Origin: Alphaproteobacteria bacterium
Lineage (GTDB): Bacteria > Pseudomonadota > Alphaproteobacteria > Sphingomonadales > Emcibacteraceae
Direction: 5' to 3'
DNA: 50,206 bases
Assembly: GCA_013152755.1 (NCBI GenBank)
Contig: JAADFR010000148.1
Coordinates: forward strand, 1-50,206
The notes beneath the pieces are model-generated. The model was not told where the DNA came from. It made no database searches and saw only the letters and a list, made by a program, of their open reading frames with translations. Shown here in pieces: positions 5,035-49,040 of the stretch (positions are counted from its first letter, which is position 1; every line of letters starts with the position of its first letter). Made by a program: the position numbers and the translations under genes.

Positions 5035-8000
5035 TTATTTTTTCGGTTTTTTATTTTTTTGCGCGGGCTGCGTATTGGGAATTATTTTTTGCATTTCTTC
5101 GGCCTGTTCACGCAGGGTTTTCTTTTTGGATCCACCAATGGCACTGAACAGACTGCGAAATATGCCGGGGGCCAATGCCGCCAGCGGATTGATTTTGATT
5201 GTCGGATCGTCCAAAGGACCGCTGATACTGTAGGTCGCCGCAAAAATACCCTGCCCTTTTCCGCCGGTCAATAATGTGCCGATAAGAGGGATATTGCCCA
5301 GAAATGAATTCAGGCCGTAAGCCGGTATCAGGGTGCCGGAAATACTCATTTCATCATAAGCCTGATCAACAGCGCCTTCCATCGTAATGCCAAGGCTCGA
5401 CCCCCTTGCGCGTCCTTTGGTTATTTCCATTACCCCGTTATAGGTCCGAAATTCCATGGAAAAAGTATTAAAAACCAGGCCGCCTCTTTTCAGTTCCTCC
5501 TGTGCTTTTTTAAATTTTTTCTCGGCCAGAAGCTTGGAAAATTCCGGTGTATCAATCACTTTGAATTTTTTGGCTTCCGCATGACCGCCAAGGGAAATTC
5601 CCCGTTCATGCTTGACCATATCGGCGACAACCTTCATATCGCCGCCAATACCAATGTTGAACATGCCAAGCCCCCTGAGTGCCTGCCCGGCATCATTGCT
5701 GGTAAATTCTAGTTTACGGTTGTCCCCCTCTGGCTTGACGGTAACTTTAATAAATTTATCCTCTGCCAATTTGCCATCGAAGGTAATATGGGTAAAGTCC
5801 TGGGCCCGGTATATGGCCGCCATATTTGTTTCTTTAATATGAACATTGTTATTGGTCAGTAGGTCATCGACCTCGGCCTCAAGATTAAAATCAGGCAGGC
5901 TTATTTTTTCTTCGTCACCGCCATTACTGAGCATAATTTCGATAAGGGGGGCCGCGTCAAAGGATTTTCCAGTCAGGGACGACAAATAATATTTCTTCTG
6001 TGCATTCCATTCCATGAGCATGACAATGTCCGTGTCTTTCATGACAAGTTTTGGAATGAAGAAGCGGGTTACCCATTCATCAACCATATCAATTTCAAGG
6101 TCCGCGCGCAGTGTTTCGCTATACAGGGCAATATTCCGGATATTTATCCTGCCCGGACCGTCGAAAAGCAAATCAAAATCAACAAGTCCCGCTTTGCCTT
6201 TCTCTTTTTGCCAGCCAATGGGCGCAAAAATGCTTTTGCTGTTCATAAGGTCGAATTGGCCGGACCCTTTCACTATGGTGCCTCCTTTACCAAAAAGAGA
6301 CAGATCAATCTCGACTGGTCCTTCAATATAGGGGTCAAAAGGAAGATGCAATTGTTCCCATTCCGCGCCTTCTATGAGACCATTTATGACATATTTGGTT
6401 GGCAGCTTTTCTTCTTTGTTAAAATTCTCAAGCCATTTTGTTTTCAGTTTAACGCCGTTAAGAATAATCTCTCCCTCTGACATAATGCCCTTGCCGTCCA
6501 CAAACATATGCATCCGGCCATCATTAATGGCCAGACTTTCCGTGAGTTTTGGAATAGAAAGGGTATCAATATCTGCGGAAACTTTAAAGGTTACATCCCG
6601 CAAAGATATTTTCTTGAGCAATGGAAACTGTAAGGACAGGGTAGCCTTGGCCTGCCCGGTAATGCTCCCCTGTTTGATGCCGTATTTGGTTGGATAACCA
6701 AGGGGCTTATAGTCAATAACGCGGAGAATTTCTTCCACAGTCCCTTCCATATCCAACGTAATTTGTGCAATTCCCTTGCCTTTAATATGGATGTCAGAAA
6801 ATAAAAGGTCAGCCTTTTTAACGGTCAATTGATCAATTTTGCCATTGGATGCAATAAGATGAAACGTATGCAGGTTTAAGACCGCCCGCCCCCCTATACC
6901 AGTTAACATGGGCATAGGGCGTAAGTAATGGGCGTTGATATTGTTAAAATCAAACTTGAAGACCATAACATCAGGCGGCAAAACAAGTTTGGCTGGGATA
7001 TTCTCATCTGGAACGGCAGGCCACATTTCAGGTTCAATATAAATGTCCAGTTGCCCCTCCTGAACAATGCCGCCGTCAATATTTTTGGCAATCCATTTAT
7101 AGGCCCCCTTGCCAAACTGGCCTGGCCAATATGTTTTAAGATCCAAAAAGGGTAAATCTCGAATATCGGCCTTAATCGCGATGCCCGGACGGTCTGTAGA
7201 GCCATATAATAATCCGGACCCACTCACATATGTTTGCCCCAGTTGCAGGGATATTTCATCCAGAACAATGGAGCTTTCTTTTTTGACTATATGCCCGTTC
7301 AAGGCCGCAGATGTTATTTTTAGTGGTTCCGGGTATATTTTTCCGGGGTTAATTAACCCCTCCCCCAAAGATAAATTAAAGGCCACTACGGGAATGTTAA
7401 AATTCTGGTCAATTTTAAATTCGATATTCCCCTTTGAGGGAACATCCATATCAGCCAGCCCGGACAAGGCTGCCACGCTTCCCGCCAGCGCCGATGGTCT
7501 TAAATCGGAAAATTCCAATGTAGTGATGGCTTCTTTTTTATCATTGTCAAACAGAAGGTAAAAATCTATGGGCATAATACGGCTGGTCGCCATATTTATG
7601 TCACCGGAAAGATTAACACTTAATCCGCTATCGGTCCGTTGTAGATTAAGCTGGGCAGAGGGTATCTGCCATTGTTGGCCTGACAATTGATCATTAAGGG
7701 TTATTTTGGTGTCCAGGAGTGAAACCTGTCGCAAATAGCCCGCCATACGGGACGATTGCGGCGGCGAAAGCAATTGCTGCGCCATTTTAAAAGGCAAACT
7801 GTTTGAATTCTGTATATTCCTCAGGAAAGCCTCAAGCTTTTCCATGAAAGGCCGGTCGTCTTTGGATTCCCAGACGTCAGGGCCAAGGGTATAATCTATG
7901 GACAGGCCGGTTATGGAAACATTGGTCGGGGCAAGCAAACCCCGCAACATAGCCAACCCGCTGAAACGGGCGCTTACTTCGGGCACATTCAGGGTAAAAT

Positions 8001-8371: not shown

Positions 8372-11341
8372 ATGGCGGAACAATCTACCTTTTTTCCACT
8401 GGCGACAAATCAAACAGACGCAGAAGGTAAATTCGCGGATTTCATAAAGCTCTGTCAAGACCAACAAGTAACAGATATTGCTACATTAATTAATCAAAAT
8501 AATTATTTATATCTCTTATACGCAATTTTCACTGACAGCCCCTATTTATCACGTCTGTTGTTTCGGGATGTGCATTTTGCCAAAGAAATTTTTTCGCAGC
8601 CACTGGATGTTCTTTTTGAGAAAACCATAAAAAATCTGTTGGCAACATTGCCTGATGAAAAAGACACAGCTCAGGTTATGAGAATTTTACGTCAAAGCAA
8701 ATCACAAGTTGCCCTGATTATTTCCTTTGCCGACCTTTCGGGGAAATGGTCCTTGGATAAAATAACGGGAAGTCTGACTGAATTTGCCGAAACATCCGTA
8801 TCTCTGGTCGTCAGTCATCTTTTACGTATTGAAATGATCAAAGGTAATCTGGCCATTCCGGCCCATATCGGGGACCGGGATGCAGATAAACTTCGGGCAA
8901 CGCCGGATATGTCAAAAGGCACCGGCTATGTGGTGCTGGCTATGGGGAAAATGGGTGGGTATGAGCTTAATTATTCCAGTGATATTGATCTGATCGTTCT
9001 CTATGACAAGGATATAGTCCGCTATACTGGCCGTAAAACGGCACAGGATATGTTTATCAAACTCACCCGGACTCTGGTCAAAATAATGCAGGAAAGAACG
9101 GCGGAGGGCTATGTTTTTCGCACGGACCTGCGGCTCAGGCCTGATCCCGGGGCAACGGCTGTAGCCCTGTCTATGGAGGGGGCGGAAATATACTATCAGT
9201 CCATGGGCCTGAATTGGGAACGTGCGGCCATGATCAAAGCCCGGCCCGTTGCGGGAGACATCGCTGCCGGATATGAATTTTTATCCCGTATCAAGAGTTT
9301 TGTCTGGCGCAAACATCTGGATTATGTGGCGCTGGAGGATATTTATGCCATCAAGAAACTTATTCACCAGCATCACGGCCACAGGGAAATATGTTTTGCC
9401 GGACAGGATATAAAGCTGGGTCATGGCGGTATTCGCGAGATCGAGTTCTATGCCCAGATTTTCCAGCTTATCGCCGGTGGACGGGAGCCGGAATTACAGG
9501 TAGCCCCAACCTGTGATGCCTTGAATGCCTTGGAAAAAGCCGGAAAACTATCCGAAACAGATAATCAAATTCTGCAAATGGCCTATGGCTATTACAGGCG
9601 GTTGGAACATCGGCTTCAGATGATCAATGATGACCAGACCCATGTGATGCCGGACAGCGCGGTGGACCTGAGCAGAATAACAAGTTTTATGGGTTATAAA
9701 GACCAGCGTACCTTTGAACGGGAGCTTGATCATCATTTGCGGAATGTTCACCGGTTATTCACGGATTTGCTGAAAGAATCCCATCAGGATGATGAGGTGG
9801 ATGATCGACTACTCGCCTTTCCGCCCGATGATTATAATGAAGCAAGTTTGCAGGTTATCTCCGAGGCAGGATATGAAGACCCCAAAGCCATTTATAATAT
9901 TATCCAGACATGGTTACTTGGGCGATACCGGGCCTGTCGTACGGAACGGGCGCGAAAGCTGCTTCATGGTTTTGTCCCGGAAATTTTACGTAATTTCAGC
10001 AGGTTTGGCGATCCGGACAGCAGTTTTAAAAGGTTTGATAAATTTCTGTCCCGCCTGCCTTCGGGCGTTCAGTTATTTTCCTTTATCAAAGCCCAACCGT
10101 GGTTGCTGGAATTACTGTCGGAAATTATCGGTATCGCGCCGAATTTGGCCGACCAACTAGCCAAGCGGCCTCTCTTGCTTGATGCGGTGGTGAATAATAA
10201 TTTCTTTGAGGCGTCTTTCAATATGGAGGGCTTGAGGGCGCATCTCAAGGACCAGCTTGCCTTGGCACAGGATTTTCAGGATATTCTGGATATAAGCCGC
10301 AAATGGGCCAGCGAGCATAAATTTCAGGTCGGGGTTCAAATTCTGCGCAATAATATTGATGCCAGAACGGCGGGCAAGAATCTGTCTATGGTAGCAGACA
10401 TCATTCTTGAGGTCATGCTGGCGGAAGTGAAACGGGAATTTGCCAGAAAACACGGCGTGATAGAGGGGGCCCAATTCGCGATCTTTGCTCTGGGCAAACT
10501 GGGTGGCCGGGAATTGACGCCCACATCTGATCTTGATCTTGTGTTTATTTATGACCCCCGGCAAGCCCCGCCTTTTTCAAACGGTGCGAAAGCTCTTTCC
10601 ATAAATCACTATTTTGCCCGCCTGAGTCAGCAGTTTATCAATGCCCTAACCGCCATGACCGGTGAAGGAAAACTATATGAGATTGATATGCGTTTGCGTC
10701 CGTCGGGCAATGCCGGTCCCATTGCCGTAACCTTGCAAGGCTTTGAAAATTATCAAATGAATGATGCCTGGACATGGGAACATCTGGCGCTGACCCGGGG
10801 CAGGACCATTGTGGCAGATGCAGAAATCGGGGATAAAATATCTCAGATTGTTCAAACTGCCCTGAAAGACAGCAACCGGCAGAATTTATTGCGTGATACG
10901 GCTGACATGCGGGAAAAGCTGTTCAATGAGTTTGGGACAAAGGATATATGGGCCGTGAAACATATCCGGGGCGGGTTGGTGGATATAGAGTTTATCTGTC
11001 AGTATTTTCTCCTGAAATATGGATCGCAATATCCGGAAATCTTTGTCACCAATACGCTTGACCAGATTTCAACATTGAAAAAAAATAATATCCTATCCGA
11101 CTATAACGGCAATATGCTCTATCATGGCTGTGATTTTATGCAAAATCTTCAGGCCGTGTTGCGGCTTTGCCTTGGTGATGAGATAAAGCTTTCAGAAAAC
11201 CAGCAGGGTTTGATAGATACGCTTTGTGAAAGGTTCGATGTGGATACGCTCGAACAGCTGGCTCAGAAAGTCACAGAAATTCAGAAAAATATTTATGATA
11301 TTTACCGGGAAATAATTGAATGTCCCGCTGAAAAATCATAA
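8372..11341 (+). CDS. glnE: Bifunctional glutamine synthetase adenylyltransferase/adenylyl-removing enzyme
   Basis: GlnE adds AMP to, and removes it from, glutamine synthetase in answer to PII signalling, tuning nitrogen assimilation. The 989-residue protein has the two expected nucleotidyltransferase domains. The N-terminal adenylyl-removing half carries GKMGGYELNYSSDIDLIVLYD-like residues (key G-G-E-L and S-D-x-D). The C-terminal adenylyltransferase half carries GKLGGRELTPTSDLDLVFI. Full length is normal for the family. I chose ATG 8372 over the in-frame GTG at 8360, because AAGG at 8357-8360 then lies 11 nt upstream. The bcp start follows after 32 nt on the same strand. Confidence 0.96.
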   Translation: MAEQSTFFPLATNQTDAEGKFADFIKLCQDQQVTDIATLINQNNYLYLLYAIFTDSPYLSRLLFRDVHFAKEIFSQPLDVLFEKTIKNLLATLPDEKDTAQVMRILRQSKSQVALIISFADLSGKWSLDKITGSLTEFAETSVSLVVSHLLRIEMIKGNLAIPAHIGDRDADKLRATPDMSKGTGYVVLAMGKMGGYELNYSSDIDLIVLYDKDIVRYTGRKTAQDMFIKLTRTLVKIMQERTAEGYVFRTDLRLRPDPGATAVALSMEGAEIYYQSMGLNWERAAMIKARPVAGDIAAGYEFLSRIKSFVWRKHLDYVALEDIYAIKKLIHQHHGHREICFAGQDIKLGHGGIREIEFYAQIFQLIAGGREPELQVAPTCDALNALEKAGKLSETDNQILQMAYGYYRRLEHRLQMINDDQTHVMPDSAVDLSRITSFMGYKDQRTFERELDHHLRNVHRLFTDLLKESHQDDEVDDRLLAFPPDDYNEASLQVISEAGYEDPKAIYNIIQTWLLGRYRACRTERARKLLHGFVPEILRNFSRFGDPDSSFKRFDKFLSRLPSGVQLFSFIKAQPWLLELLSEIIGIAPNLADQLAKRPLLLDAVVNNNFFEASFNMEGLRAHLKDQLALAQDFQDILDISRKWASEHKFQVGVQILRNNIDARTAGKNLSMVADIILEVMLAEVKREFARKHGVIEGAQFAIFALGKLGGRELTPTSDLDLVFIYDPRQAPPFSNGAKALSINHYFARLSQQFINALTAMTGEGKLYEIDMRLRPSGNAGPIAVTLQGFENYQMNDAWTWEHLALTRGRTIVADAEIGDKISQIVQTALKDSNRQNLLRDTADMREKLFNEFGTKDIWAVKHIRGGLVDIEFICQYFLLKYGSQYPEIFVTNTLDQISTLKKNNILSDYNGNMLYHGCDFMQNLQAVLRLCLGDEIKLSENQQGLIDTLCERFDVDTLEQLAQKVTEIQKNIYDIYREIIECPAEKS

Positions 11342-47777: not shown

Positions 47778-48198
47778 TGTATTATCCTTTGTTGTTTATT
47801 TTTAGCTCATAAACAGTTTATCAATTTTTGGGAGGATGTCACCCGGACTTTAACACTGCCAATCCACTGTCATTATCGCCTATATTAAAGGTGTCAGTTT
47901 TCTTTACACTTTCAAAAAAGGCAAAAAAATATTTAACCATTTGATACGTATGCATAAAATTGATTTCAGAAATATTTTTGTTCATTTCATACACATAAAC
48001 TGTCAGAAAACTTTACATTTAAGTAAATCATGAAAAGCTGATAATAGTCCTAAGTCATTGAAATATGTAAAGTCATGTATTGTGGCGTGATTCTTGCTTG
48101 TAAAATATATACTTGGGCAATCTGGCACCGCCATGGCAATTAAAGTGTGCTTAGTATTAGCAGCAAACTAATAATTAGCTGCATATTGGGAAAGAAAA
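47778..48198. promoter_or_regulatory. Intergenic region upstream of the PEP-CTERM gene with repeated motif
   Basis: This 421-nt region holds two copies of a 17-bp motif in the same orientation: TGTCAGTTTTCTTTACA (47892-47908) and TGTCAGAAAACTTTACA (48001-48017). Both halves are identical and only the A/T centre differs. They start 109 bp apart. A further half-copy TGTAAA (48066-48071) lies just before the sigma-54 promoter. These look like upstream activator sites for an enhancer-binding protein. No open frame of weight lies here. Confidence 0.6.
48083..48097 (+). promoter_or_regulatory. Sigma-54 (-24/-12) promoter of the PEP-CTERM gene
   Basis: TGGCGTGATTCTTGC fits the RpoN consensus TGGCRYR-N4-TTGC, with exactly 10 nt between the invariant GG and GC. 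It lies about 100 nt before the ATG. Known PEP-CTERM gene sets with the PrsK/PrsR two-component pair often use sigma-54 promoters, which supports the call. Confidence 0.7.
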
Positions 48199-48984
48199 AT
48201 GGTTAAAATATCAAAAATTAAAGGCATATGCATTGGAATGGCAGGGGCCTTAAGCCTGTTCATCACGCCGGCATTATCATCACCACTCATAAATGATGCT
48301 AATGTTATCCCGGATGTAATATTCGGGAGTGGAAACAGCAATGGTTCGTTTACTATAGATCGTGACAGCGGAGTAGAGCTTGGCCTGCGGGCAAAAATAC
48401 CATTCATCGGCACCACCAACAGCAATGGTGATGGAACTTATAGCTATACCCTGGCAGAGGCTAATCCCAAATGGAATTTTGATTGGACTGTCAATACGAA
48501 TTACGATGGTACGTCCGGTTTGGTTATCAGTGATTTATTCTATATTCTCGGCATTGATTTTGATCCGGGCATTGGAACAGACTTTTTTGCCTTTGACCCG
48601 ATTACCCCTAGCACGGCAGTTCCTTTTTACGACCATAGCATTGGTACAAATTCCACAGGCAATGGCGGTGGAGCGGAAGTCCCTTTTTCCAATGCTACAG
48701 AATTAGCTGCTGCTCCAGGCCTGTATCAAACTTTAATTGATAATAATAATGTCCTGCAGCAGTCATGGCGGCATGCGTTTTTTACAACGGCGTCGGGTAA
48801 ATCATATGATCCTACCATCAGTGGTACTTACGATATCTATCTGGCGGCCTTTAATGCCAATGGTAGTCAGGTGGCCCGTACGGATATTAAGGTCATCATC
48901 GGGACTGTACCGGAACCGGCTCCCTTTGCCCTGATGGCCCTGTCACTTCTGGGCATGGGTTTGTATCGCCGGAAAAGACGTTAA
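48199..48984 (+). CDS. PEP-CTERM sorting domain protein, extracellular or surface
   Basis: This 261-residue exported protein has a signal peptide (residues 1-28, cut near ALS-SP). Its mature region is rich in Asn, Gly, Thr, Ser and Asp, with no cysteine (NSNGDGTYSYTLAEANPKW, DYDGTSG-like stretches, GTYDIYLAAFNANGSQ). It ends with a textbook PEP-CTERM signal: VPEPAPFALMALSLLGMGLYRRKRR-type residues 237-261, with the Pro-Glu-Pro motif, hydrophobic helix and Arg-rich tail. An exosortase (EpsH family) would cut at PEP; no exosortase is in this window. Such proteins go with exopolysaccharide and biofilm or floc formation. It stands alone with its own sigma-54 promoter and terminator. Confidence 0.9.
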   Translation: MVKISKIKGICIGMAGALSLFITPALSSPLINDANVIPDVIFGSGNSNGSFTIDRDSGVELGLRAKIPFIGTTNSNGDGTYSYTLAEANPKWNFDWTVNTNYDGTSGLVISDLFYILGIDFDPGIGTDFFAFDPITPSTAVPFYDHSIGTNSTGNGGGAEVPFSNATELAAAPGLYQTLIDNNNVLQQSWRHAFFTTASGKSYDPTISGTYDIYLAAFNANGSQVARTDIKVIIGTVPEPAPFALMALSLLGMGLYRRKRR

Positions 48985-49012: not shown

Positions 49013-49040
49013 AAGGCGGTCGTTATGGGCCGCCTTTTTT
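49013..49040 (+). terminator. Intrinsic terminator after the PEP-CTERM gene
   Basis: AAGGCGG (49013-49019) pairs with CCGCCTT (49030-49036) around a 10-nt loop, followed at once by TTTTTT. It lies 28 nt after the stop codon. Confidence 0.85.

Follow-up and report, generated by a model that had tools for sequence, protein, structure and literature searches.

The gene at the centre of this analysis very probably constitutes a one-gene unit of the XrtA/PEP-CTERM regulon, activated by PrsK-PrsR together with IHF and sigma-54, whose product would be processed by XrtA and bound to the matrix. It lies in a stretch of 50,206 nucleotides of alphaproteobacterial DNA, referred to here as the window. The system itself is already known; the unit described by Haft et al. 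in 2006, together with the genetics of Aquincola and Zoogloea, places the gene in the published PrsK/PrsR/sigma-54 type of PEP-CTERM gene. In the mechanism that we propose, the kinase PrsK would phosphorylate the NtrC-type activator PrsR, and phospho-PrsR would bind 17-bp dyads (TGTCRG-N5-TTTACA) upstream of the gene. IHF, bound between enhancer and promoter, would bend the DNA and so bring PrsR, on the correct face of the helix, to the sigma-54 RNA polymerase at TGGCGTGATTCTTGC, switching the gene on; the distal dyad, which has an IHF-like site to itself, would serve as a second enhancer. The product would be exported by means of its signal peptide and then cleaved by XrtA at VPEP, and the mature Ig-like domain would join the surface or exopolysaccharide layer. 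Judged by family context alone, the mature protein is probably adhesive or matrix-binding.

The gene and its upstream elements

The protein ends in VPEPAPFALMALSLLGMGLYRRKRR, which scores above the cut-offs of both Pfam PF07589 (21.4 bits against 20.7) and TIGR02595 (19.5 bits against 16), in agreement with the sorting signal that had been read from the sequence. By eye, the N-terminus has a basic n-region, a hydrophobic stretch and small residues near positions 25-28. Upstream of the gene lie ybjQ and, beyond it, a long ORF that we take by eye to be gyrA, and downstream the gene for MazG; ybjQ is divergent, on the opposite strand, and starts 115 bp from the distal enhancer (UAS) copy. Since these neighbours have other functions, we regard the gene as a one-gene unit. 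The original prediction called it stand-alone, which is true of its position only, since the genome holds 26 more PEP-CTERM genes.

Two copies of TGTCAG-N5-TTTACA, 109 bp apart from start to start, precede the gene exactly as had been claimed (Table 1). When one mismatch is allowed these are the only two places in the window where the motif occurs, and none of 100 dinucleotide shuffles yielded two matches at the same stringency; a chance origin of the pair is unlikely. The sigma-54 site was likewise present with the GG-N10-GC spacing that had been described. By itself this site is not significant, TGG-N8-TTGC occurring 16 times in the window against 12.2 expected, and its credibility therefore comes only from its distance to the motif and from its conservation: both the proximal UAS and the sigma-54 site are conserved in orthologues, the latter in all six. 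About 101 nt separate it from the ATG. Matches to the IHF consensus are no commoner in the window overall than chance would give. A TGTAAA half-site at about 48066, which had been counted among the regulatory elements, is kept in two orthologues (L107 and L111) and absent from two others (L108 and L110); since it is not conserved we rejected it as a functional element, and it probably has no function. No Rfam match was obtained when the leader was scanned for structural RNA, and a phage origin was rejected, there being no PHROGs match.

Table 1. Positions in the window of the PEP-CTERM gene and its predicted control elements
Feature	Position	Strand	Basis or remark
Distal UAS copy (TGTCAG-N5-TTTACA), predicted PrsR site	47892-47908	+	Exact match, TGTCAGTTTTCTTTACA
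Distal IHF-like site, TAACCATTTGATA	47934-47946	+	9/9 of YAANNNNTTGATW
Proximal UAS copy, predicted PrsR site	48001-48017	+	Exact match, TGTCAGAAAACTTTACA; 65 bp 5′ of the sigma-54 site
Proximal IHF-like site, TAAGTCATTGAAA	48051-48063	+	8/9; 19 bp 5′ of the sigma-54 TGG
Predicted sigma-54 promoter, TGGCGTGATTCTTGC (-24 GG, -12 GC, GG-N10-GC)	48083-48097	+	Sequence and conservation in orthologues
Expected transcription start	48108-48110	+	From general sigma-54 geometry, ~12 nt past the -12 GC
PEP-CTERM protein, 261 aa (CDS including stop)	48199-48984	+	
Putative N-terminal signal peptide, residues about 1-28	48199-48282	+	Read from the sequence
Mature domain, residues about 30-235	48286-48903	+	Modelled by AlphaFold as an Ig-like beta-sandwich
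PEP-CTERM sorting signal (VPEP, hydrophobic helix, RRKRR)	48904-48978	+	PF07589, residues 236-260; located here by the genome search
Stem-loop with a T run behind it, resembling an intrinsic terminator and ending the one-gene unit	49013-49036	+	

Regulatory machinery and regulon in the genome

The original prediction had named an exosortase, PrsK, PrsR and RpoN as partners that should accompany the gene, and all were found in the genome (2.9 Mb in 191 contigs, 95.5% complete). Its one exosortase, with a TIGR03109 score of 309 bits (cut-off 208), is XrtA; it is flanked by XrtA-associated ATPase, FemAB and TIGR03016 proteins. PrsK (655 bits against 300), PrsR (700 against 502.6) and PrsT are encoded consecutively on contig C57, behind an EpsB_2 glycosyltransferase, and score above the curated cut-offs. 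RpoN and both IHF subunits (ihfA and ihfB, above cut-offs) are encoded as well.

There are 27 PF07589 matches in the genome, two of them doubtful (C76 and C186), and the UAS motif occurs at 21 places exactly and at 27 more with one mismatch. The regulon was counted from a pattern search and from individual stretches. Upstream sequence was sufficient for 25 PEP-CTERM genes; 20 of these have the motif with at most one mismatch within 450 bp, a strong enrichment, and one further gene (on C157) has a fully symmetric form, TGTAAAGATTCTTTACA. Of those remaining sites that were inspected, several precede PEP-CTERM-like genes missed by the Pfam search, are situated at the end of a contig or have a small ORF behind them. 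One, on C5, falls inside a coding region and looks like a chance match. Two of the missed proteins (L093, G000:C151:14989-15083, and L099, G000:C186:14952-15035) stand behind a UAS and sigma-54 unit and end in SAPETAALFLFGLMGMVFARRRRS and VPEPGGLALILIGLFASFGLRRR, respectively; the figure of 27 is therefore an undercount. About 27 surface-protein genes seem to be switched on by one known regulator, and a large regulon can be read from a single motif. The original prediction was overstated here in that both motif and regulon had already been published in 2006 (PMC1569441). Taken together, the reading as an enhancer-dependent PEP-CTERM unit is supported, and none of the grounds for refutation that were tested computationally spoke against it. 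The PrsK/PrsR/sigma-54 PEP-CTERM regulon is thereby confirmed to reach the Emcibacter lineage of marine alphaproteobacteria.

Several other loci carry the same promoter elements. On contig G000:C102 (L089, 14880-18025), a UAS with IHF-like and sigma-54 sites, at a gap of 52, precedes an operon encoding a 195-aa protein whose leader is Tat-like, together with an HPr-rel-A PqqD-like chaperone (TIGR04353) and an HprK-related kinase A (TIGR04352). This operon is a predicted target of the PEP-CTERM regulon whose products are not PEP-CTERM proteins, and its gene order and promoter recur in another genome (G010, L167). Two short ORFs, each preceded by a UAS with IHF-like and sigma-54-like sites, may be small regulon members that lack an annotation: one encodes a small protein of membrane type close to the XrtA locus (L089, UAS at 7213-7229, minus strand), and the other is 53 aa long (L101, UAS at 8717-8733, plus strand). 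Two contig ends (G000:C87:62-178 and G000:C174:13759-13875) carry almost the same promoter, probably because a PEP-CTERM gene is duplicated and the assembly broke there.

Promoter geometry

A set of 100 genomes was searched for a UAS followed, after 46-76 bp, by TGG-N10-GC. Units of this kind were present in 40 of the 100, and a reversed control pattern gave almost none. After removal of two double counts, 60 sites from relatives and those of the genome itself made up a set of 76 promoters; the spacer of the window gene was set by hand to the conserved site at 65 bp, the script having picked a site at 105 bp. The spacers fall into three groups, of 51-55 bp (13 promoters), 61-66 bp (56) and 72-76 bp (7), one helical turn apart, and not one of the 76 measures 56-60 or 67-71 bp. 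With a period of 11 bp the resultant is 0.80, whereas none of 10,000 uniform draws went above 0.37, a result that the 46-76 bp search range confines to three turns. Across the phylum, the exact unit occurred in only 6 others of 249 genomes, too few for a spacing test outside the order. The likely meaning of the spacing is that PrsR and the polymerase need to be turned towards each other on the helix.

A further element lies within the spacers. A pattern like TAAnCCnTTGAAT emerged, without any prior model, in the columns that lie 31 to 19 bp ahead of the TGG. It fits the IHF consensus, read as YAANNNNTTGATW, and its position is fixed, 17-20 bp before the sigma-54 site. Of the 74 non-redundant spacers, 30 contain the site with at most one mismatch (at least 8/9), and in 22 of these it falls in one 4-bp interval. 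By comparison, 300 dinucleotide shuffles gave at most 15 matches with 5 in the interval, permuted consensuses (up to 300) at most 15 with 10 in one interval, and the IHF consensus in the opposite orientation 11 with 5. The element might instead be bound by a different bending protein, or be a tract that is curved in itself or melts readily, as many promoters match just 6-7 of the 9 consensus positions and the information per column is modest. However, it occurs in one orientation only and at a fixed place, its 30 and 22 matches stand against 15 and 10 for the best permuted consensus, the genome encodes both IHF subunits, and IHF is the usual bending protein at sigma-54 promoters; we therefore consider such an alternative unlikely, and predict from the sequence that IHF binds the proximal site of the window gene. 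NtrC-type enhancers with IHF-assisted looping at sigma-54 promoters are known, for example, from the nif and gln systems. The present unit resembles these in its 17-bp dyad with an N5 centre, its upstream position, the IHF-like site in between and the -24/-12 promoter, but differs in two ways: its enhancer lies at fixed distances that are unusually short (51-76 bp between the dyad's end and the -24 element), and its dyad is asymmetric (TGTCRG / TTTACA).

The distal UAS has its own IHF-like site downstream, TAACCATTTGATA, but no sigma-54 site. Both UAS copies are kept in six orthologues (L106-L111, the window gene included), the other five of which encode proteins 84 to 66% identical to that of the window. 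The copies are 109, 109, 88, 88, 88 and 110 bp apart, which corresponds to some ten turns in one class and some eight in the other, a difference of about two helical turns. In all six, the sigma-54 site follows 64-65 bp behind the proximal UAS; it reads AGGCACGGTTTTTGC in L109/L211. A distal 9/9 IHF-like site is also present in L107, L108 and L110, and L111 has none at 9/9. We doubt that the distal copy is without a role for the PEP-CTERM gene, whether as a relic or as an element of the divergent ybjQ. Most regulon genes in the genome do without a second copy at such a distance, and the start of ybjQ is only 115 bp away on the other strand; yet there is no sigma-54-like site facing ybjQ in between, the copy is retained in orthologues with as little as 66% protein identity, and the classes of distance (88 against 109-110 bp) lie some two helical turns apart. 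The commoner layout in the genome is a second UAS in inverted orientation, starting 19-20 bp away. Such opposed 17-mer pairs, forming a near-palindrome of ~37 bp, are found on G000 contigs C2, C4, C31, C87, C114, C122, C151 and C184, and a fully symmetric single dyad on C157 and C184.

Use of a second GG-N10-GC, TGGCACCGCCATGGC at 48123-48137, as the promoter is extremely improbable: it has an equal consensus score by simple counting and a canonical -24 TGGCAC, but its -12 element is TGGC, not TTGC, it lies 105 bp from the UAS and thus beyond the 51-76 range (the promoter search covering up to 76 bp), and it was rejected because it is not conserved in the orthologues, even in the 84% identical L107 (TGGCACCGCCTTTGT).

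We lean towards the view that PrsR promoters are built as a rigid three-part complex of PrsR dyad, IHF bend and sigma-54 polymerase on one helical face (~52, 63-65 or 75 bp), with a second, in-register enhancer module at the window gene. If this is true, distance and phase, beyond the motif, would define the regulon, which would take in targets other than PEP-CTERM genes, such as the conserved HPr-rel-A (PqqD/HprK-like) operon.

Relation to described systems and the mature domain

In Proteobacteria, Haft et al. (PMC1569441) described a 17-nt motif 1 that ends in TTTACA and is sometimes repeated, followed after a spacer of mean 62.8 nt (32-92) by a 17-nt sigma-54 motif 2 (-24/-12), at a mean of 71 nt from the start, and named PrsK, PrsR and PrsT through a phylogenetic profile. 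The window gene shares with this unit motif 1, the -24/-12 motif 2, the one-gene organization, the long upstream region and PrsK/PrsR/PrsT; its spacer is 65 against a mean of 62.8, and the distance to the start about 101 nt against a mean of 71. It differs in that two copies of the motif lie 109 bp apart, each followed by an IHF-like site. A search of the text of that paper found no mention of IHF, of inverted or palindromic sites or of helical phasing, and in the searchable literature, outside which most subscription journals lie, we found no description of quantised spacing, a fixed IHF-like site or a tandem enhancer. The spacing and IHF-like data turn the 2006 motif into a testable geometry and should allow regulon calling with fewer false hits.

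The Aquincola PEP-CTERM gene pepA is RpoN-dependent, with its start mapped behind a -24/-12 promoter (PMC9850573), and a Zoogloea PEP-CTERM gene is under RpoN and PrsK-PrsR, as reported in PMC9012009. The likeness to these flocculation-associated PepA proteins (NF033554) is that of a PEP-CTERM protein under RpoN and, in Zoogloea, also PrsK-PrsR. Membership in NF033554 is not supported: the full protein matches weakly (35.8 bits against a cut-off of 80, E 7.4e-9), as do 39 of 55 family members, and the mature domain alone gives no match.

Scanned by itself, the mature domain had no Pfam or NCBIfam match. The earlier statement that it matches no family is thus correct for these collections, but the domain is nevertheless widespread, and it represents a family without a Pfam or NCBIfam name. 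Relatives were found in 108 stretches from Alpha-, Beta- and Gammaproteobacteria, Planctomycetes and others, mostly ending in PEP-CTERM or VPLPA-like signals; the close named relatives are Emcibacter MAGs, which puts the lineage in or near the Emcibacterales. AlphaFold gave a poor model from 9 sequences (pLDDT 58) and a good one from 55 (pLDDT 87), the best model being an Ig-like sandwich. With this model Foldseek returned no match at E 0.001 or better, and a sequence search against solved structures found nothing. VIA-align gave Z of up to 7.0 at most, for diverse Ig-like sandwiches; among the top matches are RbmA, a biofilm scaffold, and the carbohydrate-binding domain of Wzt (Z 6-7). The match to RbmA (Z 6.7, rmsd 2.9, 107 aligned) may reflect only the common beta-sandwich. 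Given the negative Foldseek search and Z values of up to 7.0 for such diverse sandwiches, we rejected an assignment of the domain by fold and draw no function from it.

Planctomycetes and Proteobacteria carry the domain with PEP-CTERM or VPLPA-like ends. In Maribacter (L229, L230, L232, L238 and L241) it lies inside large proteins of secreted type, of 800-900 aa, and likewise within 800-900-aa proteins in Gammaproteobacteria (L216, L219 and L220; Marinicella is among the carriers), in both cases without a PEP-CTERM end. Since the domain occurs in PEP-CTERM proteins of several phyla and also inside the large Maribacter proteins, it is a candidate for a family whose mode of anchoring can be exchanged.
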